Positions 8,940 to 19,506 of a DNA stretch of 51,135 nucleotides are shown here, one piece after another. The stretch is from Candidatus Thermoplasmatota archaeon (GTDB taxonomy: Archaea; Thermoplasmatota; SW-10-69-26; JACQPN01; JAJPHT01), in assembly GCA_035540375.1 (NCBI GenBank), contig DATLGO010000107.1, positions 1-51,135 of the forward strand, written 5' to 3'. Made by a program: the position numbers and the translations under genes. The notes below the pieces were generated by a model. The model was given only the letters and a program-made list of their open reading frames with translations. It ran no database searches and was not told the DNA's origin. Position 1 is the first letter of the stretch. Every line of letters begins with the position of its first letter.

Positions 8940-9110
8940 GGTTATCACCGGTGCTCCGCGACGCGTCGCCGGGGAACGATGCCCGCGAGCCGGAGCCCGT
9001 CGGGTTCGCATCGGTCGGGCCGGAGCCCGCCTTTCCGCTCGGAACGCCCTCGACCGGAAACGGACCGGCCGTGGGCGGACGTCGGGTGCAAGCGCTCCGA
9101 AGGCGGGGTG

Positions 9111-9122
9111 CCTTATAAAAGG
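9111..9122 (-). promoter_or_regulatory. Palindromic TATA box of the L44e-S27e operon
   Basis: CCTTATAAAAGG reads nearly the same on both strands and is the only strong TATA match in the 255-base gap 8940-9194. Read leftward it would start a transcript near 9090 and leave a leader of about 150 bases before L44e, unlike the leaderless layout elsewhere in the window. The leader holds repeated GGGCTCCGGC-type segments but no recognised riboswitch. Confidence 0.55.
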
Positions 9123-9194
9123 CTTGCTGGCCGGGAAGGGGGTGCCCGCCGGGCCCGCCCCCGGCCCGGCGGGACCGGGTCCAGGCGATCAGGC

Positions 9195-9494
9195 TCAGAC
9201 GGTCCGCGGGGGCGACGGCTTCTTCGCCTCGCGGTTCTCGAAGGCGTCGCCGATCCAGACGCCCACGACGAACGCGAGCACGATGACCAGCGTCGCGATG
9301 ATGAGGTCGATGAATCCGGCGCCGCCCAGGCCAAGCGGGTTCGCGCCGAAGATCGCGCCCAGGATCGAAAGCACGACCGCGATCACGAGGCCGATGAGGA
9401 AGCCTTTGACCAAGAGCCGGGACTTGTCCTCCCGTCCGGGCGAGAGATAGCCGTAAGCGATGCCTCCGATGAGGGCGAGCAGTGGACCCCACAT
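9195..9494 (-). CDS. Small hydrophobic membrane protein
   Basis: A 99-residue protein beginning MWGPLLALIGGIAYGYLSPG, with three hydrophobic segments (about residues 2-18, 28-52 and 60-83) and a charged tail NREAKKPSPPRTV. A glycine-rich turn (GANPLGLGGAG) separates the last two helices. I recognise no family. It lies upstream of and codirectional with L44e but is separated from it by the TATA box at 9111-9122. Confidence 0.6.
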   Translation of the reverse strand: MWGPLLALIGGIAYGYLSPGREDKSRLLVKGFLIGLVIAVVLSILGAIFGANPLGLGGAGFIDLIIATLVIVLAFVVGVWIGDAFENREAKKPSPPRTV

Positions 9495-9593
9495 GATCCA
9501 TCGTTTGCGGGGCGATCCGGCAAGTAGGCACTGGCCGCTTCCTTGATCCCGGCGAGAACGTTCATCGGCCCCGCGCGCCCCGTTCGGTCCAGG

Positions 9594-9602
9594 GATACAA
9601 AT
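9594..9602 (+). promoter_or_regulatory. TATA-like box of the PRTase-hydrolase gene
   Basis: GATACAAAT lies 27 bases before the ATG at 9625, the spacing expected for a leaderless archaeal transcript. It is a moderate match to the consensus. Confidence 0.5.
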
Positions 9603-9624
9603 GCGCGCCTCGGAGGACTGCTGA

Positions 9625-10923
9625 ATGCCGTTCACCGACCGCCGCGACGCGGGCCGCCGCCTCGCCAGGGTCCTCGACCGGTTCTCCACCGAGGACCCGC
9701 TCGTCCTCGGCATCCCGCGCGGCGGCGTCGTGGTGGCGCGCGCGGTGGCGGACGCGCTCGGCGCGCCGCTCGACGTCGCGGTCGCGCGCAAGCTGGGCGC
9801 GCCATCGCAGCGCGAGCTTGCCCTCGGCGCGATCGCGCCGGGCGACGTTCGGGTCGTCGACGAGCGCCTCGTCTCGGCCTTGCGGGTGGGCCGCGACGAC
9901 CTCGAGGAGATCGTGGCCGCGGAGAGGGACGAGATGAAGAGGCGTCTTGCGCGATACCGGGGCGAAAACGCGCCGCCCGACGTCCGCGGCCGCGTCGCGC
10001 TCGTCGTGGACGACGGGCTTGCGACCGGCGCGACGGCGACGGCGGCGGTGCGGTCCTTGCGCGCGGGCGGTGCCTCGAAGGTCGTGCTCGCCATCCCCGT
10101 CGCCTCGCCGGAAGCGATCGCGCGCCTCGAGCGCGAGGCCGACGAGGTCGTCTGCCTCGAAGCGCCGCACCACTTCCGCGCCGTCGGCCTCTGGTACGAC
10201 GACTTCACTCAGACGACGGACAAGGAGGTGATGGACGCGCTCGCCCCCCCGGGGTCCGAGGGCACGCGCGCCGTGTCCATCCCCGCAGCCGATCGCGTCC
10301 TCGACGGGGACCTCGCGATGCCTTCCCGCGCGAAGGGTCTCGTCGTCTTCGCCCACGGTTCCGGCTCCGGCCGCGCGAGCGCGCGCAACCGGGCCGTCGC
10401 CGAGCGCTTCCGCGAAGCGGGTTACGCGACGCTCCTCTTCGACCTTCTCGCGCGCGAGGAGGCCGCCGTCGACGCCGTGACGCATCACCTCCGCTTCGAC
10501 GTCCCGCGGCTTGCGGACCGCGTCGTCGCGGTCGTCGACTGGTGCCGGCGCGAGCCTTCGACGTCGCGCCTCCCCGTCGCGCTCTACGGCTCGAGCACGG
10601 GCGCAGCGGCGGCGCTCATCGCAGCCGCCGAGCGGCCCGGCGACGTCGCCTCCGTCGTGTCGCGCGGCGGCCGACCGGACCTCGCCGCCGCCTCCCTTCC
10701 GCGCGTCGAGGCGCCGACGCTTTTCGTCGTCGGGGCGCGCGACGATGCGGTGCTCGACCTCAACCGCCGCGCCCTCGCGGACATCCCGGGCGAAACGGCG
10801 TTGACCGTGATCCCGGGCGCGGGCCACCTCTTCGAGGAGCCCGGGACGCTCGACCGCGTCGCCGAGGCCGCCGTCGACTGGCTCGACCGACGCCTCTCCC
10901 CGGCGCCCGCGCGCGGCGCTTGA
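9625..10923 (+). CDS. Phosphoribosyltransferase-alpha/beta-hydrolase fusion
   Basis: A 432-residue two-domain protein. Residues 1-215 are a type I phosphoribosyltransferase with the PRPP-binding loop VALVVDDGLATGATATAA (about 124-141). Residues 230-430 are an alpha/beta hydrolase of the dienelactone-hydrolase type: oxyanion region VVFAHGSGSGR, nucleophile elbow YGSSTGAAAA, acid in VGARDDAVLDLN and His in IPGAGHLFEE. The fusion is widespread in prokaryotes but its substrates are not firmly known. It sits 57 bases before a uracil-type NCS2 permease, which invites a role in nucleobase or nucleoside salvage; that link is inference. Confidence 0.85.
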   Translation: MPFTDRRDAGRRLARVLDRFSTEDPLVLGIPRGGVVVARAVADALGAPLDVAVARKLGAPSQRELALGAIAPGDVRVVDERLVSALRVGRDDLEEIVAAERDEMKRRLARYRGENAPPDVRGRVALVVDDGLATGATATAAVRSLRAGGASKVVLAIPVASPEAIARLEREADEVVCLEAPHHFRAVGLWYDDFTQTTDKEVMDALAPPGSEGTRAVSIPAADRVLDGDLAMPSRAKGLVVFAHGSGSGRASARNRAVAERFREAGYATLLFDLLAREEAAVDAVTHHLRFDVPRLADRVVAVVDWCRREPSTSRLPVALYGSSTGAAAALIAAAERPGDVASVVSRGGRPDLAAASLPRVEAPTLFVVGARDDAVLDLNRRALADIPGETALTVIPGAGHLFEEPGTLDRVAEAAVDWLDRRLSPAPARGA

Positions 10924-10980
10924 CCCTCCTGTGGCGTCCGTGACAAATCCGGCAGCGCGCTTCGGCGAGGCGACACCCCT

Positions 10981-12378
10981 ATGCACGCGATGACCGTCGC
11001 TCGCCCGATGGCGGATGCGGATCTCGTCTACGCGCCCGACGAGAAGCCGAGATCCGCGTTCGACTGGGGCCTCTACAGCCTGCAATGGGTCGTCACGATG
11101 TTCTACGCGGTCGTGTGGGGCTACGCGATCGTCGGGCTCGGCCTTGGATTCGAAGGCGCCGAGTTCTCCGCCTACATGTCGGCGATCGTCCTGACGATCG
11201 GCGTCGGGACGCTCGCGCAGGCCCTCGCGGGCCATCGTTTCGCGATGGTCTCTGGACCGAACATCATCCCGTCCCTCGCAATCGTCGCGGCGCTTGCGGC
11301 CGGAGGACGCGAATACGCGCTCCAGGCGTTCACCGCCCAGGCGATCACGGGCATCGCCGTCGCCGCCCTGGGGCTCGTCGGCGTCCTCGGTCTCGTCCGG
11401 AAGGTGTGGAGCCCGCTCGTGCTCGGAAGCATGGTCTTGACGGTCGGCCTCGCGATCGCGGGCGTGGGCCTCGAGCAGCTCGCGGCCCTCGGCTTCGGGT
11501 GGCCCTTCGCCTTCGGCCTCGCGCTCGCCGTCGGCGGCGCGGCGCTCTCGATCCGTGGACGTGGCCTCGCGGCCACGCTCGCGCCGCTCCTCATCATCGG
11601 CCTCGGGTACCTCGTCTTCGCGGCGACCGGCGCGCTCGACTGGAGCCTTTCCGCGGCCGCGCCGACCTTCGTCCTCCCCGCCCTCTTCCCCTACGGCCTG
11701 GCGATGCCGCCGCTCGACCTTCTCGCGGTGATGCTCGTCGTCAACCTCATGGCGGCGCTCAACCTCTTCGGGAATCTCCGAGGCTACGCCGACGTCGTCG
11801 GCGAGGAGGTGCCGCCCCGTCGCGAGCGCCGCTCGTTCGCGATCCTCGGAGCGGTCGAAACCGGCCTCGCCGGAGTTCTCGGCGTTCCCGCCACGGTCGC
11901 GTACGGCGAGAATCTCGGGATCGTCCTCCTCACGCGCGTCGCGGCCCGCGCGTTCATCATCGTCGCGGCGGTCGTGTTCATCCTCCTCGCGTTTCTCGGT
12001 CCCGTCGGCGGCTTCCTCGCGGCCATGCCGGGCCCCATCGCCGGGGCCGTCCTCCTCGGCGTCGCCTCGACCGTCATCGGCATCGGGGCTTCGATGATGG
12101 CCGACGCGCCGGAGTTCGGACGCCGCGAGCAGACGCTCGTGGGCTTCTCCGTCTTCCTCGCCCTCGGCCTCTATCTCCTGCCCGAGGGCGCCTGGTCGGG
12201 GGTCCCCACGCTCGTCACCACGGTCCTCTCGAACCCCGTGATCAGCGTCATTCTCTTCGTCATCGTGATGGAGCAGGTCATCCTGCGCAAGACGAAGCCG
12301 CGGCGTTCTACGCCGCGCCAGGAATCGGGGGCGCCCGATCGACCGGCGCGCGGGGATCGCGGGACCACCGCGCGATGA
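10981..12378 (+). CDS. NCS2-family nucleobase permease, uracil-type signature
   Basis: A 465-residue polytopic membrane protein with about 12-14 helices. The nucleobase-ascorbate transporter signature reads YGENLGIVLLTRV, with Glu in the position seen in UraA-like uracil carriers. VSGPNIIPSLAIVAAL and the late DAPEFGRREQTLVGFSVFLA support the NCS2 family (proton or sodium symporters for uracil, xanthine and relatives). The gene is followed by an amidohydrolase and a second NCS2 carrier, with the first junction only 20 bases apart. The C-terminal tail is basic and probably cytoplasmic. Confidence 0.88.
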   Translation: MHAMTVARPMADADLVYAPDEKPRSAFDWGLYSLQWVVTMFYAVVWGYAIVGLGLGFEGAEFSAYMSAIVLTIGVGTLAQALAGHRFAMVSGPNIIPSLAIVAALAAGGREYALQAFTAQAITGIAVAALGLVGVLGLVRKVWSPLVLGSMVLTVGLAIAGVGLEQLAALGFGWPFAFGLALAVGGAALSIRGRGLAATLAPLLIIGLGYLVFAATGALDWSLSAAAPTFVLPALFPYGLAMPPLDLLAVMLVVNLMAALNLFGNLRGYADVVGEEVPPRRERRSFAILGAVETGLAGVLGVPATVAYGENLGIVLLTRVAARAFIIVAAVVFILLAFLGPVGGFLAAMPGPIAGAVLLGVASTVIGIGASMMADAPEFGRREQTLVGFSVFLALGLYLLPEGAWSGVPTLVTTVLSNPVISVILFVIVMEQVILRKTKPRRSTPRQESGAPDRPARGDRGTTAR

Positions 12379-12398
12379 CGACGGAAGGAGGACTGGAC

Positions 12399-13376
12399 AT
12401 GGCGAAGGAAACCCAGGCAACGAAAAGGCAGGGCGGATCGAGCGAAGCGGAGGAGCACCGGCCCGGCGCGACGCCGCGCCCCGGACAGAAGACCTACGAG
12501 GCCTTCATGGACGCCGGCCGGGAGCGCGTTCTCGAGCAGGTCCGCAAGGGCTACGAGTCGTTCATGGAGACGCGGACGTTCAAGGTCCCCACGTGGCTCT
12601 ACGGCCCGCCCAAGGGGACGCTTTTCAAGGTCAAGTGCGAGGACAGCCCCGACTTCGGCGAAACGTCGCATCTCGAGTTCGATTCCGGCCGCACGGCCTT
12701 CCTGAGCATCGACATGCAGATCGACTTCGCGGGCGACCGCGGGTACGTGGACGTCATGGGTTACCCGCTCGAGAACACCGCCCGCGCGATCGCCCCCATC
12801 CAGCGGTCGCTCGAGGCCGTCCGGGGCACCGACATCACCGTCGTGCACACGCGCGAAGGCCACCTGCCGGACCTGAGCGACGCCCCGTACAACAAGCTTC
12901 TCAGGAGCAAGATCATCGGCAACGGCGTCGGCATCGGCGAAGCCCCCGAAGGCGGCCTGGGTCGACTGCTCGTGCGCGGCGACACCAACTGGGACATCAT
13001 CGACGAGCTCTACCCGCTTCCCGGCGAGATCGTGGTCGACAAGGCCGGGAAGGGGGCGCTCGCCGTGAGCACGCTCTTCATGAGGCTCCAGAACCAGGGC
13101 ATCACCCACCTCGTCATCACGGGCATCACGACGGACGTGTGCGTGGACACCATCATGACGCAGGCCAACGACCTCGGATTCTGGTGCATGCTCCTCAAGG
13201 ACTGCACCGGCGCGACGGACGACAAGAACTACGAGGCCGCGGTCAAGATGATCAAGATGCAGGGCGGCGTCTTCGGCTGGGTCTCCGATTCGGCTTCCTT
13301 CATCCAGGGGCTCGAGGAGGCCGGACTGGCGCGCCAGGGCAAGGGCGTGCGACGCGAGCCGTCCGGGTCGTCGTGA
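12399..13376 (+). CDS. Isochorismatase-fold amidohydrolase (biuret/ureidoacrylate type)
   Basis: A 325-residue cysteine hydrolase. The fold's triad is visible as D105 (FLSIDMQIDF), K215 (VVDKAGKGAL) and C248 (TGITTDVCVDT). Segments HTREGHLPDL, NWDIIDELYPLPGE, LLKDCTGATD and KMQGGVFGWV closely follow biuret amidohydrolase and are near RutB, the ureidoacrylate amidohydrolase of pyrimidine breakdown. These enzymes split a ureido C-N bond. The N-terminal 90 residues are an extension I do not recognise. ATG 12399 is chosen because GGAAGGAGGA ends 6 bases before it. Its stop overlaps the GTG of the next permease. Confidence 0.85.
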   Translation: MAKETQATKRQGGSSEAEEHRPGATPRPGQKTYEAFMDAGRERVLEQVRKGYESFMETRTFKVPTWLYGPPKGTLFKVKCEDSPDFGETSHLEFDSGRTAFLSIDMQIDFAGDRGYVDVMGYPLENTARAIAPIQRSLEAVRGTDITVVHTREGHLPDLSDAPYNKLLRSKIIGNGVGIGEAPEGGLGRLLVRGDTNWDIIDELYPLPGEIVVDKAGKGALAVSTLFMRLQNQGITHLVITGITTDVCVDTIMTQANDLGFWCMLLKDCTGATDDKNYEAAVKMIKMQGGVFGWVSDSASFIQGLEEAGLARQGKGVRREPSGSS

Positions 13377-14785
13377 GCGGCTCCGTCGCGGCCGGCGGCG
13401 ACGAGGAAGGCCGCGTGGTCTACGGCCTCGACGAGCGCCCACCCACGGGGCGCGCCGTCGTGTATGCGTTCCAGCACATCTTCGCGATGATCGTGGGGAG
13501 CATCACGGGCGCGGTCGTGATCGGCACCACGATAGGCCTCGACGACGCCGCCATCGGCCGACTCGTGGGGATCATCAACGTCGCCGTGGGCATCGCCACG
13601 ATCGCGCAGGTGCGCTGGGGGGTCCGCCTCCCCGTGATCCAGGGCTCGACCTCGGGACACCTTCCCGCCTACCTCGCGCTCGGATCGGTCGGCGTGGCGC
13701 TCTTCCAGGACGCGACGCTCACGATGCAGTACATCGTCGGCGCGCTCCTCGTCGGCGGCGTGATGGAGGCCGCGATCGGCTTCGGCAACGTGATCCCGAG
13801 GCTGCGGCGCTTCGTGTCGCCGATCGCCGTCGGCATCGTGATCATGATGGTCGGCCTCGGGCTCTGGCCGCTCGTCAACGACTTCATCGGCGACGCGTGG
13901 GGCGTCGCGATCGCCGTCTTCGTCCTCGTCCTCGTCTTCAGCTTCGCGTTCGGGACCACCGCCCGGACCATGGCCGTGTTCCTCGCCGTGATCGTGGGCT
14001 ACGGCGCGGCCGCGGCCGGCACGGCCCTGGGATGGTTCGGCGCCGGCCACGCGCTCCACGTCGATTTCGGCGCCATCGCGGCCGCGCCCTGGTTCCAGGC
14101 GCCGACGCCCTTCGCGTGGGGCGCGCCCCGGTTCGACGTGGGCTTCATCCTGGCGATGACGATCCCCTATTTCGCGACGATCTTCGAGTCCTTCGGCGAT
14201 TACCTCGCGGTCGCCCGGTCGAGCGGGGTCGAGACGCCGTCGCCGCGCAGGATCAGCCGCGGGATCGCGACCGAGGGGCTCGCGAGCGCCCTGAGCGCGA
14301 TCCTCGGAGGCACCGCCACCAGCTCCTTTTCGCAGAACGTCGGCGTCGTGAGGCTCACGGGCGTCGCGAGCCTCTTCGTCTGCGTGCTCGCGGGCGCGAT
14401 CCTGATCGCGCTCGGGATCTTCGGCAAGCTCGGCGCCACGCTCGGGGCCGTCCCGCGATCGATCCTGGGCGCGGTCTACCTCGTCGTCTTCGGCGTGCTG
14501 GTGATGACGGGGCTCCGGCTCGTCCTCAGGGCGCGCGTGACGACCTCCCGCAACGAGGCGATCATCGGCACCGCGCTCCTCCTCGGCCTCGCGCTGCCCG
14601 CCTACGTGCGCGAGAATCCCATCGAGGCGGGAGAAACGGGCGTCCGCGTCCTCGCGAACACGTTCCTCGCGACGCCCATGATGGTCTCGGGTCTTTGGGC
14701 GCTCGTGCTCGACAACCTGATCCCGGGAACGGACGAGGAACGGGGACTCGTCGGTTGGCTGGAGCCGTCCCCGGGGAAACCTTAA
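13373..14785 (+). CDS. NCS2-family permease, purine-type signature
   Basis: A 470-residue polytopic carrier. The family signature reads SFSQNVGVVRLTGV, with Gln rather than Glu, the form usual in xanthine, urate and other purine carriers. VIQGSTSGHLPAYLALGS early and ESFGDYLAVARSSG in the middle are further NCS2 motifs. GTG 13373 overlaps the upstream stop by 4 bases (GTGA), so it is translationally coupled to the amidohydrolase. Two carriers of different signature around one ureido hydrolase suggest import of two related nitrogen compounds. Confidence 0.87.
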   Translation: MSGSVAAGGDEEGRVVYGLDERPPTGRAVVYAFQHIFAMIVGSITGAVVIGTTIGLDDAAIGRLVGIINVAVGIATIAQVRWGVRLPVIQGSTSGHLPAYLALGSVGVALFQDATLTMQYIVGALLVGGVMEAAIGFGNVIPRLRRFVSPIAVGIVIMMVGLGLWPLVNDFIGDAWGVAIAVFVLVLVFSFAFGTTARTMAVFLAVIVGYGAAAAGTALGWFGAGHALHVDFGAIAAAPWFQAPTPFAWGAPRFDVGFILAMTIPYFATIFESFGDYLAVARSSGVETPSPRRISRGIATEGLASALSAILGGTATSSFSQNVGVVRLTGVASLFVCVLAGAILIALGIFGKLGATLGAVPRSILGAVYLVVFGVLVMTGLRLVLRARVTTSRNEAIIGTALLLGLALPAYVRENPIEAGETGVRVLANTFLATPMMVSGLWALVLDNLIPGTDEERGLVGWLEPSPGKP

Positions 14786-14826
14786 ACTCCGAAACCCGCC
14801 ATCGCTCGTCCGTCGGGAGACGAGCC

Positions 14827-15705
14827 ATGGCGAACGCGAAGGAGCGGAAGGTCACGGTCGGCCTCGTGCAGATGCAGGCGCGCGACGAGCCCGCCTCGTC
14901 CCTCAAGCGCGCGATCGATCTCATCGGGCAGGCCGCGGACAAGGGCGCGGAGATCGTGCTTCTGCAGGAGCTGTTCCTCACGAAGTACTTCTGCCAGACG
15001 GAGGACCCCGCGAACTTCGACCTCGCGGAGAGCGTCCCGGGCCCCACGACCGACGCGCTCGCGAAGGTCGCAAAGGCGCGCGGCGTCGTCATCGTCGCGA
15101 GCCTGTTCGAGCGCCGCGCGGCGGGCGTGTACCACAACACGGCCGCGGTCATCGACGCGGACGGCACGTTCGTCGGCAAGTACCGCAAGATGCACATCCC
15201 CGACGACCCGCGCTTCTACGAGAAGTACTACTTCACGCCGGGCGACCTCGGCTTCAAGGCCTTCGACACGAAGAAGGGCCGCATCGGCGTCCTCGTGTGC
15301 TGGGACCAGTGGTACCCCGAAGCCGCGCGCCTCGCCGCGCTCGCGGGCGCCGAGATTTTGTTCTATCCGACGGCGATCGGCTACTGGCCGGGCGAGCCGG
15401 ACGGCATCCCCGACAAGCAGCACCAGGCGTGGGAAACGATCCAGCGCGCGCACGGCGTCGCGAACGGCGTCTACGTGGCCGTCGCGAACCGCATCGGCGT
15501 CGAGGACGATCTCGTCTTCTGGGGCCGCAGCTTCGTGTCGGATCCGCTCGGGACGATCCTCGCGAAGGGCTCCGACGACAAGGAGGAGGTCGTGCTCGCG
15601 ACGCTCGACCTCGGCGCGATCGAGCGCACCCGGCAGGGGTGGCCCTTCCTGCGGGACCGCCGCATCGACGCCTACGGACCGATCACCTCGCGCTATCTTG
15701 ACTGA
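14827..15705 (+). CDS. aguB: N-carbamoylputrescine amidase
   Basis: A 292-residue nitrilase-superfamily enzyme that hydrolyses N-carbamoylputrescine to putrescine, CO2 and ammonia. The catalytic triad is visible as E48 (LLQELFLTKYFC), K121 (GKYRKMHIPDD) and C158 (GVLVCWDQWYPEAARL). YFCQTED and FYEKYYFTPGD are particular to the AguB/CPA group rather than beta-ureidopropionase. The agmatine deiminase gene follows after 9 bases, supplying its substrate. A possible promoter element CCTTAAACT lies at 14780-14788, so this pair may also be transcribed apart from the permeases. Confidence 0.93.
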   Translation: MANAKERKVTVGLVQMQARDEPASSLKRAIDLIGQAADKGAEIVLLQELFLTKYFCQTEDPANFDLAESVPGPTTDALAKVAKARGVVIVASLFERRAAGVYHNTAAVIDADGTFVGKYRKMHIPDDPRFYEKYYFTPGDLGFKAFDTKKGRIGVLVCWDQWYPEAARLAALAGAEILFYPTAIGYWPGEPDGIPDKQHQAWETIQRAHGVANGVYVAVANRIGVEDDLVFWGRSFVSDPLGTILAKGSDDKEEVVLATLDLGAIERTRQGWPFLRDRRIDAYGPITSRYLD

Positions 15706-15714
15706 GGCATCCGC

Positions 15715-16770
15715 ATGACGCCGACGACCCCCCGCGCGATGGGCTACCGCATGCCGGCCGAGTGGGAGCCCCACGAAGCCACGTGGCTCGCGTGGCCGCA
15801 CGACCCGATCACCTGGCCCGACCGCGTGGCGCAGGTCGAGGAGATCTTCCTCGACTTCTGCGAGGCGCTCGCGCCGCACGAGCGCGTCGAGCTCCTCGTG
15901 AAGGACGAAAACCTCCTCGCGAGCGTGCCGAAACGCCTCCGCGCGCGCGGCGTCGACGAGGGGCGCGTGCGCCTGCACCTCGTCCCCACCGCCGACTCGT
16001 GGATCCGCGACTACGGCCCCATCTTCCTCACGCGCCCCGGCGGTCCCGAGCCCCGGCTCGCCGCGACCGACTGGATCTTCAACGCCTGGGGCGGCAAGTA
16101 CGACGCGCTCCTCCCGGACGACGACATCCCGCAGCGGGTTCGGCACCTCTTCCCCGCGGGCACGCCGCTCTTCGAGCCGGGCATCGTGATGGAAGGCGGC
16201 TCGCTCGACGTGAACGGCGCGGGCACGGTGCTCACGACGGAGCAATGCCTTCTCAACAAGAACCGCAACCCGAAGCTCTCGCGCGAGGACATCGAGGGTT
16301 ACCTGCGGGACTACCTCGGCGTTTCCAAGGTGCTGTGGCTCGGCGACGGCATCGAGGGCGACGACACGGACGGCCACGTCGACGACATCACGCGTTTCGT
16401 CGCGCCCCGCAAGGTCGTGACGGTGATCGAAGAGGACGAGACGGACGCGAACCACGCGCCGCTCGCGGCGAACCTCGCGCGCCTGAAGGAGATGACGGAC
16501 CAGGACGGCCGCAGGCTCGACGTCGCGACGCTCCCGATGCCCGACTTCGTCGGCGACGAGGAGGGCCGGCTCCCGGCGAGCTACGCGAACTTCTACATCG
16601 CGAACAACGTCGTGCTCGCCCCGGTTTTCGGCCACGATGCGGACGCCGAGGCCGTGGACGTGCTGAAGAAGCTCTTCCCGACGCGGCGCATCGTGCCGAT
16701 CAACTGCGAGCCGCTCGTGTGGGGCTTCGGCGCCATCCACTGCGTGACGCAGCAGCAGCCGAAGGTGTGA
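15715..16770 (+). CDS. aguA: Agmatine deiminase
   Basis: Converts agmatine to N-carbamoylputrescine and ammonia. The 351-residue protein has the guanidine-deiminase fold with MPAEWEPHEATWLAWPHD at the start, SWIRDYGPIF, DTDGHVDDITRF with the catalytic His, and the nucleophile C343 in GAIHCVTQQQP. Length and motifs are typical. With the amidase just upstream it forms the two-step route from agmatine to putrescine that releases two ammonia and one CO2. A Cys-rich mini-protein starts 2 bases after its stop. Confidence 0.95.
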   Translation: MTPTTPRAMGYRMPAEWEPHEATWLAWPHDPITWPDRVAQVEEIFLDFCEALAPHERVELLVKDENLLASVPKRLRARGVDEGRVRLHLVPTADSWIRDYGPIFLTRPGGPEPRLAATDWIFNAWGGKYDALLPDDDIPQRVRHLFPAGTPLFEPGIVMEGGSLDVNGAGTVLTTEQCLLNKNRNPKLSREDIEGYLRDYLGVSKVLWLGDGIEGDDTDGHVDDITRFVAPRKVVTVIEEDETDANHAPLAANLARLKEMTDQDGRRLDVATLPMPDFVGDEEGRLPASYANFYIANNVVLAPVFGHDADAEAVDVLKKLFPTRRIVPINCEPLVWGFGAIHCVTQQQPKV

Positions 16771-16772
16771 GC

Positions 16773-16952
16773 ATGGCCGCGGCCGCGCACCGTTTCGCGG
16801 TCTGCACGGCGTGCGGCCACGGGGCCGTCGCGAGGTCGGCGCGCGCCGCCTGTCGGCTCTGCGGCGCGCCCCTCGCGGAGCGCGCGGCGCCGGCCACGCT
16901 TTTCGCCGGCTGGCGGTGCGCCTGCGCGGCCTGCCGCGTGTCCCCCTGTTGA
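16773..16952 (+). CDS. Cysteine-rich mini-protein
   Basis: A 59-residue protein with eight cysteines: CTAC (11-14), CRLC (27-30), CACAAC (49-54) and the C-terminal C59. The first two pairs look like a zinc ribbon; the last group resembles a second metal site. ATG 16773 lies 2 bases after the agmatine deiminase stop, so translation is likely coupled. I recognise no family. Codon use matches the neighbours. It could be a metal-binding partner or a chance frame, but the regular CxxC spacing argues for a real product. Confidence 0.55.
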   Translation: MAAAAHRFAVCTACGHGAVARSARAACRLCGAPLAERAAPATLFAGWRCACAACRVSPC

Positions 16953-17002
16953 CGTCCGAAACCAGGCGCGAGGGGGGCCACGCGTCCCGATCCGGACATC
17001 GC

Positions 17003-17009
17003 CTATATG
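17003..17009 (+). promoter_or_regulatory. TATA box of the HMA-like gene
   Basis: CTATATG-type box centred near 17006, about 30 bases before ATG 17036. It decides between the two in-frame ATGs (17024 and 17036) in favour of the second if the transcript is leaderless. Confidence 0.5.
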
Positions 17010-17035
17010 ATCGAGCGCGACCGATGGAAGGCAGG

Positions 17036-17257
17036 ATGAGGCGCGTCGCGCTCGAGGTCGACACGCTCCGCTGCGAAGCGGACGAGGCGGCCATCCTCGA
17101 CGAGGTGCTCGCCCAGGAAGGCGTGCTCGCGGCCGAAGTGGACCTCGCGTCCGAGCGCGTCTCGCTCGCCTTCGACGAGCACGTCACCACGAAGGCCGCC
17201 CTGCTCGGTCACCTCCGTTTCTTCGGTCTAACCCCTCGCCCGGCCCGCCCCTTGTAG
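17036..17257 (+). CDS. HMA-like small protein without metal-binding Cys pair
   Basis: A 73-residue protein, MRRVALEVDTLRCEADEAAI, with a predicted beta-alpha-beta-beta-alpha-beta pattern like heavy-metal-associated domains. The usual CxxC is reduced to a single Cys (TLRCEAD). GVLAAEVDLASERVSLAFDE matches the strand-turn-strand typical of the fold. Without the second Cys it is unlikely to be a normal copper chaperone. The assignment is by pattern only. The gene stands alone between the agmatine block and a small acidic orphan. Confidence 0.55.
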   Translation: MRRVALEVDTLRCEADEAAILDEVLAQEGVLAAEVDLASERVSLAFDEHVTTKAALLGHLRFFGLTPRPARPL

Positions 17258-17376
17258 CGGTTTGAAGGACCGCTCCGGACCCGTTCCAGCGATCGTACGG
17301 GACGCTTCATTTTCTGATCCAGCGAATGCAACACAATCTTCATGGTGTAGGAAGCCCCATGGAATGAACGGGCTCC

Positions 17377-17760
17377 ATGGAATCGATCGTCTGGAGGATG
17401 GATTGGAATCCGGAGTTCGAGGATGAGCCGCGGCTCAAGCGCGAGATCCTCAAAGCGCTCCAGGACGACAAGACGATCGAGACCATCAAGCGCTTCGCCG
17501 AGACGGCGCACAAGGAGGCCCTCGAGGACGGGCTCGAAACCGAGCACCTCCTCTGGCTCGACTCCTCCTTCACCTACGCCTTCTTCGTCCGGGTCTGGTA
17601 CGAGGTGAGCGAGAAGAAGCTCTTCATCATCGTCGAGGAGAACGACCTCGGCGACGTCGGCTTCCTCATCCTCGAGGATCTCGACTGCGCCTCCTACAAC
17701 GAGGAGAACACGCTCAAGGTCGAGTTCCGCGAGCCGGACGACCTCGGCGTTTCGCTCTGA
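17377..17760 (+). CDS. Acidic protein of unknown function beside GINS
   Basis: A 127-residue acidic protein rich in Glu, Asp and aromatic residues (WLDSSFTYAFFVRVWYEVSE, KLFIIVEENDLGDVGFL). The pattern of an N-terminal helical part and a C-terminal sheet of 4-5 strands suggests a compact alpha/beta fold. I recognise no family. ATG 17377 is used; ATG 17398 (MDWNPEFEDEP) is an alternative. Its TGA abuts the stop of the GINS gene in TGATCA. No membrane segment or signal peptide is visible. Confidence 0.6.
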   Translation: MESIVWRMDWNPEFEDEPRLKREILKALQDDKTIETIKRFAETAHKEALEDGLETEHLLWLDSSFTYAFFVRVWYEVSEKKLFIIVEENDLGDVGFLILEDLDCASYNEENTLKVEFREPDDLGVSL

Positions 17761-18757: not shown

Positions 18758-19426
18758 TCACGCGGCGCGGGCCACGACGCGCGCGTCCAGGGGCGGAAGG
18801 CCCGGCGCGCGCGCTTCGAGGCGATCCCCGGGAGAAACGGGCCCGACCCCCTCGGGGGTTCCCGTCGCGAGGATGTCGCCCGCTTCCAGGGTGACGTGCC
18901 TCAGGACGGACGCGAGGAGCGCGCCGACCGGGTGCGCCATGTCGCGCGTGTTGCCGCGCTGGCGCACGGCGCCGTTCACGGCGAGCGTGAGGTCGAGCGA
19001 GCCCGGGTCGATCGCCCCCGGGGGAACGGCCTCCCCGATCGGAGCGAACGTGTCGATGCCCTTCGAAAGCGACCAAGGATTCCCGGCCTTCTTCGCGGCG
19101 GCCTGCAGGTCGCGCGCCGTCATGTCGAGGAAGAGCGCGTAACCCCAGAGGGCCGCGAGCGCCGTCCCCGCGTCGGACCCGCGCGGGACGTCGCGACCGA
19201 CGATCGCCGCCAGCTCGACCTCGTGGTGCACGCTTCCGATGCCGGGGGGAATCTCCACCGCCCCGCCGGAGTGGACGAGCGCGCTTCGCGGCTTCAGGAA
19301 CCACATCGGCTCCGCGGGCGCCTCGCCCCCCATCTCGCGCGCGTGCGCCGCGTAGTTCTTGCCGATCGCGACGATCTTGCCTGCGACGAGCGTCGCGCCG
19401 TCCGTCCGGCGCAGCGTGAAGGGCAT
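18758..19426 (-). CDS. Fumarylacetoacetate hydrolase (FAH) family protein
   Basis: A 222-residue FAH-fold enzyme of the FAHD1/acylpyruvase group. KIVAIGKNYAAHAREMG is the usual N-terminal signature; VHHEVELAAIVGRDVP supplies the two Glu ligands of the metal and YALFLDMTARDLQ the Asp; GDILATGTPEGVGPV forms the substrate loop. Relatives cleave acylpyruvates, decarboxylate oxaloacetate or act in aromatic breakdown; which applies here cannot be read. ATG 19426 fits the family start; an earlier in-frame start at 19456 is less likely. Confidence 0.85.
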   Translation of the reverse strand: MPFTLRRTDGATLVAGKIVAIGKNYAAHAREMGGEAPAEPMWFLKPRSALVHSGGAVEIPPGIGSVHHEVELAAIVGRDVPRGSDAGTALAALWGYALFLDMTARDLQAAAKKAGNPWSLSKGIDTFAPIGEAVPPGAIDPGSLDLTLAVNGAVRQRGNTRDMAHPVGALLASVLRHVTLEAGDILATGTPEGVGPVSPGDRLEARAPGLPPLDARVVARAA

Positions 19427-19506
19427 GCCTCCGCGAACGCGCGGCCCCCACGTCAAGCCTCGCCCGCTCCGCGAAGGCTTATGCGGCGGGGCGGCGAGGA
19501 ATCCTC

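Follow-up and report, generated by a model that had tools for sequence, protein, structure and literature searches.

A predicted biuret-use cassette beside a separate agmatine gene pair in a Thermoplasmatota archaeon

Does an unbroken run of rightward genes, with two nucleobase-type carriers, an isochorismatase-fold hydrolase and two agmatine enzymes, make up one nitrogen-scavenging operon, or do independent units lie side by side? The question is posed by a 51,135-nucleotide contig of a Candidatus Thermoplasmatota archaeon, analysed in its entirety and referred to below as the window, from a 97% complete MAG with a genome of 3.13 Mb. The window is archaeal (it encodes aIF2-alpha, L44e, S27e and PAC2); an Rfam search of it gave no match, and ARAGORN found no tRNA in it. 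The features of the locus are as follows.

9625–10923, plus strand: PRTase–dienelactone-hydrolase-like fusion (Pfam Pribosyltran 57 bits, DLH 40 bits)
10981–12378, plus strand: NCS2a, non-canonical nucleobase-ascorbate transporter (NAT) and predicted biuret importer (Pfam Xan_ur_permease 141 bits; motifs)
12375–13376 or 12399–13376, plus strand: long-form BiuH-like amidohydrolase (PDB, NCBIfam, residue fingerprint, AlphaFold2/Foldseek)
13373–14785, plus strand: NCS2b, canonical purine-type NAT (Pfam 233 bits; GTG start overlapping the BiuH stop)
14776–14787, plus strand: TATA-like element in the GAAACCTTAAAC region, candidate aguB promoter, overlapping the NCS2b end
14827–15705, plus strand: AguB, predicted N-carbamoylputrescine amidase (carbon-nitrogen hydrolase family; TIGR03381 308 bits, cut-off 410; PDB 6mg6, 5h8i)
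15715–16770, plus strand: AguA, predicted agmatine deiminase (PAD_porph 407 bits; PDB 1xkn, E=1.4e-105)
16773–16952, plus strand: putative 59-codon Cys-rich frame (CxxC..CxxC; third-position GC 0.93)

All seven frames named in a preliminary description of the locus proved to be open, on the plus strand and in the order given there, with clear family matches for all except the Cys-rich frame. The short or overlapping junctions that it reported are likewise seen in the coordinates: NCS2a and the hydrolase overlap by four bases (ATGA), as do the hydrolase and NCS2b (GTGA), and gaps of 41, 9 and 2 bases follow between NCS2b and AguB, AguB and AguA, and AguA and the Cys-rich frame, respectively. 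NCS2a, the hydrolase and NCS2b (10981–14785) are a compact three-gene cassette, and a rare one. The PRTase fusion probably lies outside this cassette; no linked counterpart of it was found beside long-form BiuH genes, with weak remote matches only in two loci (L032 and L018).

The hydrolase and its relatives

The central enzyme may start at 12375 or at 12399, the latter preceded by AAGGAGG. Its description as an isochorismatase-fold hydrolase with D105, K215 and C248 (numbered from the 12399 start) was borne out: these residues, together with K218, are invariant in an alignment of its relatives. BiuH structures are the best PDB matches (6azo, E=1.9e-66), and the AlphaFold2 model (mean pLDDT 74) has BiuH 6xjm as its top Foldseek match and RutB as a structural relative. 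The NCBIfam BiuH equivalog (NF050097) gave 265 bits, below its cut-off of 370, and because this cut-off was missed we file the protein, by its sequence, in a BiuH-like long-form sister clade rather than as a strict BiuH member. Its N-terminus carries about 70 conserved residues beyond characterised BiuH, which AlphaFold2 models as a confident helix (residues 32–58) followed by strands. To our knowledge, no long-form BiuH enzyme has been characterised.

Mutants have shown that biuret and triuret hydrolases are told apart by few second-shell residues (PMC7948467). In a 122-sequence alignment, the window hydrolase carries the Asp-Lys-Cys triad along with F41, K145 and Q215 (the last common to BiuH and TrtA types) and all five biuret-side residues, namely Y47, Y53, D173, T200 and V218 (positions as in PMC7948467). 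The TrtA set F35, N41, E160, Y187 and I205 is missing, with Y, Y, D, T and V in its place, and the sole TrtA-like position is an A instead of S147, where mutation is neutral in TrtA (PMC7948467). The biuret set recurs in all other long-form members, with one exception (Q to E in Nitrosospira, L022), and since second hydrolase copies in many bacteria show the triuret set, the comparison does discriminate. Judged by these residues, the hydrolase likely converts biuret to allophanate and ammonia.

The long-form clade is well supported in our tree (100/99, stem 1.24) and includes the Nitrososphaerota hydrolases examined, which fit the description of 'biuH' in ammonia-oxidising archaea; the substrate of the enzyme in these nitrifiers is unsettled (PMC12625717). 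In several Nitrososphaerota loci, the gene immediately 5′ of the hydrolase encodes an NCS1 carrier, not NCS2a. Elsewhere, atzF lies one base 3′ of long-form BiuH in Natronorubrum, cyanuric acid hydrolase lies near it in three loci (L005, L009 and L033), and AllFGHK and carboxyltransferases adjoin it in some others. All these neighbours, the urea-carboxylase-like protein of L022 included, consume allophanate or make biuret.

Some of these neighbourhoods are worth recording in their own right. In the Nitrosospira locus (L022:1544-6280), a urea-carboxylase-like protein of 1206 residues precedes the long BiuH with Glu for Gln at 215. Two further loci (L007:4651-13074 and L018:4909-12863) encode, consecutively, PucR, NCS2a, long BiuH, two carboxyltransferase-type proteins, a biotin carrier (AMKM) and a Na+-transporting decarboxylase beta subunit; CT_A_B was confirmed for the second carboxyltransferase-type protein in both, and the rows read like a sodium-pumping biotin-dependent allophanate decarboxylase. 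Where cyanuric acid hydrolase is present (L005, L009, L033), BiuH, AllFGHK-type genes and carbamate kinase lie nearby, a set that suggests that cyanurate or biuret is fermented, with ATP gained via carbamoyl phosphate. A conserved membrane protein of ~430 aa (L005:5156-6409, L008:627-1937, L009:9784-11034, L011:1437-2798, L033:5272-6573; partial in L026), whose gene has long BiuH and either AllFGHK or cyanuric acid hydrolase genes nearby, matched no NCBIfam model at 1e-10 and no Pfam model at 1e-5, and looks like a further transporter.

Two carriers and the origin of the cassette

NCS2a keeps the canonical TM10 E-N-x-G (E310, in ENLGIVLLTR) and lacks two other hallmarks of canonical NATs, with Q35-W36 in place of the TM1 Gln-His and N261-x-x-G-N265 at the site of the TM8 Glu. 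A HMMER alignment with UraA pairs the TM8 Asn with E241, a residue whose UapA counterpart hydrogen-bonds the purine (PMC4837479) and which a NAT family survey found absolutely conserved (PMC5972032). With this substrate-binding Glu replaced by Asn, the earlier label 'uracil-type' does not hold. In a survey that covered the window protein and its 14 orthologues, compared with UraA and UapA, TM1 QW and TM8 N-x-x-G-N occur in 15/15 members, all with the TM10 motif kept; one of three control NCS2 loci from within the phylum, L101, was read out of frame and gave no information.

Of 31 long-form loci, 14 have an NCS2a orthologue (49–65% identity) adjoining the hydrolase: directly upstream in 11, downstream in one and divergent in two. 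The hosts include Bacillota, Desulfovibrio, Acidobacteriota, Chloroflexota, Pigmentiphaga, Bdellovibrionota and Bathyarchaeota, and three loci (L006, L030 and L034) have the pair without other recognised pathway genes. No plasmid homologue of NCS2a was found at 1e-20. By motif and linkage, then, NCS2a represents a NAT clade that departs from the canonical pattern and repeatedly has a predicted biuret hydrolase as its partner. We know of no characterised relative of it, and among the few papers on biuret transport that we searched, we found neither an NCS2-family importer assigned to biuret nor a description of this clade. As the simplest reading, we propose from linkage and motif that NCS2a imports biuret; alternatively, it could carry triuret, cyanuric acid or some other ureide. 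We lean, at slightly better than even odds, towards the wider proposal that the QW/N-x-x-G-N NAT/NCS2 clade is a dedicated biuret (ureide) importer, spreading between bacteria and archaea paired with the long-form hydrolase.

NCS2b has only canonical motifs (TM1 FQH, TM8 ESFGD, TM10 QNVGVVRLTG), in line with its earlier designation as a purine-type (QNVG) permease, and its top PDB match is SLC23A1, followed by UapA and UraA. Among the 31 long-form loci it recurs in one only, that of a Bdellovibrionales MAG (L004), where NCS2a, BiuH and NCS2b stand in the same order (identities 65, 70 and 64%) among unrelated genes. Lack of a conserved order, which the preliminary description named as grounds for refuting its own reading, applies to the block as a whole and not to these three genes. 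The hydrolase occurs in 1 of 390 phylum genomes (the other 389 were searched and lack it) and was found in none of six class relatives; in the tree, it groups with the Bdellovibrionales sequence and those of Acidobacteriota, Chloroflexota and Pigmentiphaga (support 100/100). Based on this distribution and the tree, the three genes were probably transferred horizontally together, whether the archaeal or the Bdellovibrionales lineage was the donor or a third source supplied both. Third-position GC does not set the cassette apart (0.90–0.95 versus 0.96 for aguBA), so composition lends no support to a recent transfer.

The agmatine genes and the competing readings

AguB and AguA miss their NCBIfam equivalog cut-offs (308 of 410 and 295 of 382 bits) and are still by far the best matches, adjacent and a conserved pair; their activities on N-carbamoylputrescine and agmatine are predicted. 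AguA is present in 7/7 class genomes, and the two genes lie close together in the order B-A in 6/6 class relatives, there without NCS2 or the hydrolase. None of the 31 long-BiuH loci has a match to AguB, AguA or the Cys-rich protein. Upstream of aguB by 46 bases is a CTTAAA at 14781; of the set of TATA-like hexamers searched for, only two occur on the plus strand within 9001–17500, a near-absence from this 70% GC stretch. Similar elements precede aguB at roughly similar distances in relatives (L095, GAAAGCCTTAAG; L093, CACTTTAAAG; L094, CGCTTATG). Because the pair is conserved in relatives, absent from long-form loci and preceded by a TATA-like element, aguB-aguA seem to have been inherited as a unit of their own, with a candidate promoter that abuts the cassette. 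Read-through from NCS2b into aguB is possible, given that only 41 bases separate them.

The Cys-rich frame, possibly a zinc ribbon by its sequence, had no Pfam match, scored 17.3 bits against a cut-off of 32 with a rubrerythrin-like model and found no convincing match next to aguA in relatives. It is followed by a short protein resembling the heavy-metal-associated domain (HMA; 17036–17257, plus strand; 23 bits, just below cut-off). Farther on, an FAH-family hydrolase is encoded on the minus strand (18758–19456), and FAH genes also adjoin biuH in Nitrososphaerota; we rejected this gene as a part of the cassette, as it lies 5 kb off on the opposite strand, and the likeness is probably chance.

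Taken as a whole, the locus is best explained, with a probability of roughly 0.6, as a transferred biuret-use cassette beside a separate inherited agu unit. NCS2a would import biuret, probably with a proton by analogy with other NAT carriers, and the long-form BiuH would split it at a Cys-Lys-Asp centre into allophanate and one ammonia, as fingerprint, fold and neighbours suggest. NCS2b would travel with the pair and probably import something else, for instance xanthine or urate. Downstream, aguB-aguA would form putrescine under their own candidate promoter. Allophanate decays spontaneously to urea and CO2. From each biuret the host would thus obtain a single ammonia, and the remainder would be lost or shared as allophanate or urea, barring an unseen enzyme or a missing contig.

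We expect this loss because no known allophanate or urea enzyme was seen in the host. Its 97% complete genome was searched family by family: with working positive controls, AllG, the urea-carboxylase CT domain and urease were not found; allophanate hydrolase was not found either, the sole Amidase-family gene being GatA, beside GatB. The host has one isochorismatase-fold protein in total. What remains odd under this explanation is a hydrolase product without known local use. The case for NCS2a and BiuH appears strongest in their linkage across many phyla and in the constancy of the carrier motif.

The preliminary description had favoured one scavenging operon that begins with NCS2a, includes AguA and ends with the Cys-rich protein, with ammonia drawn from the carbamoyl groups of both imports and agmatine. 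A shared strand, short gaps, the four-base overlaps among the first three genes and the related carbamoyl chemistry of the enzymes fit such an operon, which is nevertheless very improbable in light of AguBA lacking the cassette in 6/6 relatives, agu genes beside 0/31 long-BiuH genes and the TATA-like element before aguB. The coupling of a ureido-splitting amidohydrolase to a carrier survives from that account (14/31 loci, biuret fingerprint) and the inclusion of the agmatine genes does not; the assembly was real and the enzyme class right, but two independent units had been joined.

Placing the hydrolase in pyrimidine breakdown, as a ureidoacrylate or other ureide amidohydrolase fed by NCS2a as a uracil carrier, would agree with the UraA-like E-N-x-G in TM10 and with the structural kinship to RutB. 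We consider this improbable too, since the RutB model (TIGR03614), with its cut-off of 378 bits, scores 104, the hydrolase residues are of the biuret type throughout, and both the Glu and the His of UraA TM8 are Asn in NCS2a. Unlikely, if less far-fetched, is that NCS2a brings in a triazine (cyanuric acid, for example) or a ureide other than biuret, with the hydrolase acting on biuret formed downstream: L005, L009 and L033 do encode the cyanuric acid hydrolase AtzD and a cytosine-deaminase-like protein close to the pair, but the pair stands without AtzD in L006, L030, L034 and the window, and AtzD was not found in the host genome in a search run without a positive control.

Fertilisers contain biuret and triuret as impurities, and both compounds also arise when triazines and purines are broken down. 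What deserves pursuit here is the NCS2a-BiuH pair with its motif: a carrier clade that can be read from its motif and is linked to the hydrolase across distant phyla predicts a substrate for the archaeal enzymes, and NCS2a would offer a test of how exchanging the most conserved binding residue of a nucleobase carrier fold could adapt it to a ureide that is small and acyclic.

Comparison with known systems

With BiuH of Rhizobium leguminosarum (6azo) and Rhodococcus Mel (6xjm), the window enzyme shares the core fold, the Cys-Lys-Asp centre and all biuret-type positions; it differs in its ~70 extra N-terminal residues, its separate clade and its sub-cut-off NCBIfam score. An annotated ABC transporter adjoins the BiuH genes of Rhizobium plasmids, whereas an NCS2 carrier takes this place in the window. 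The 'biuH' of ammonia-oxidising archaea (PMC12625717) belongs to the same long-form clade, the nitrifier sequences compared being ~60–70% identical to the window enzyme; their loci are linked to cytosine permease or ABC carriers, GatA-like, PurE and FAH genes, while in the tree the window enzyme falls among NCS2a-linked forms of bacteria. The AguB/AguA pathway from agmatine to putrescine is represented here by both enzymes, adjacent and in the B-A order of class relatives, and only the neighbouring cassette is unusual. Finally, both carriers fall in the Pfam family of UraA, UapA and SLC23A1: NCS2b carries all three canonical NAT motifs, whereas NCS2a keeps that of TM10 and has TM1 QW and TM8 N-x-x-G-N where the known carriers have QH and E-x-x-G-D/H.
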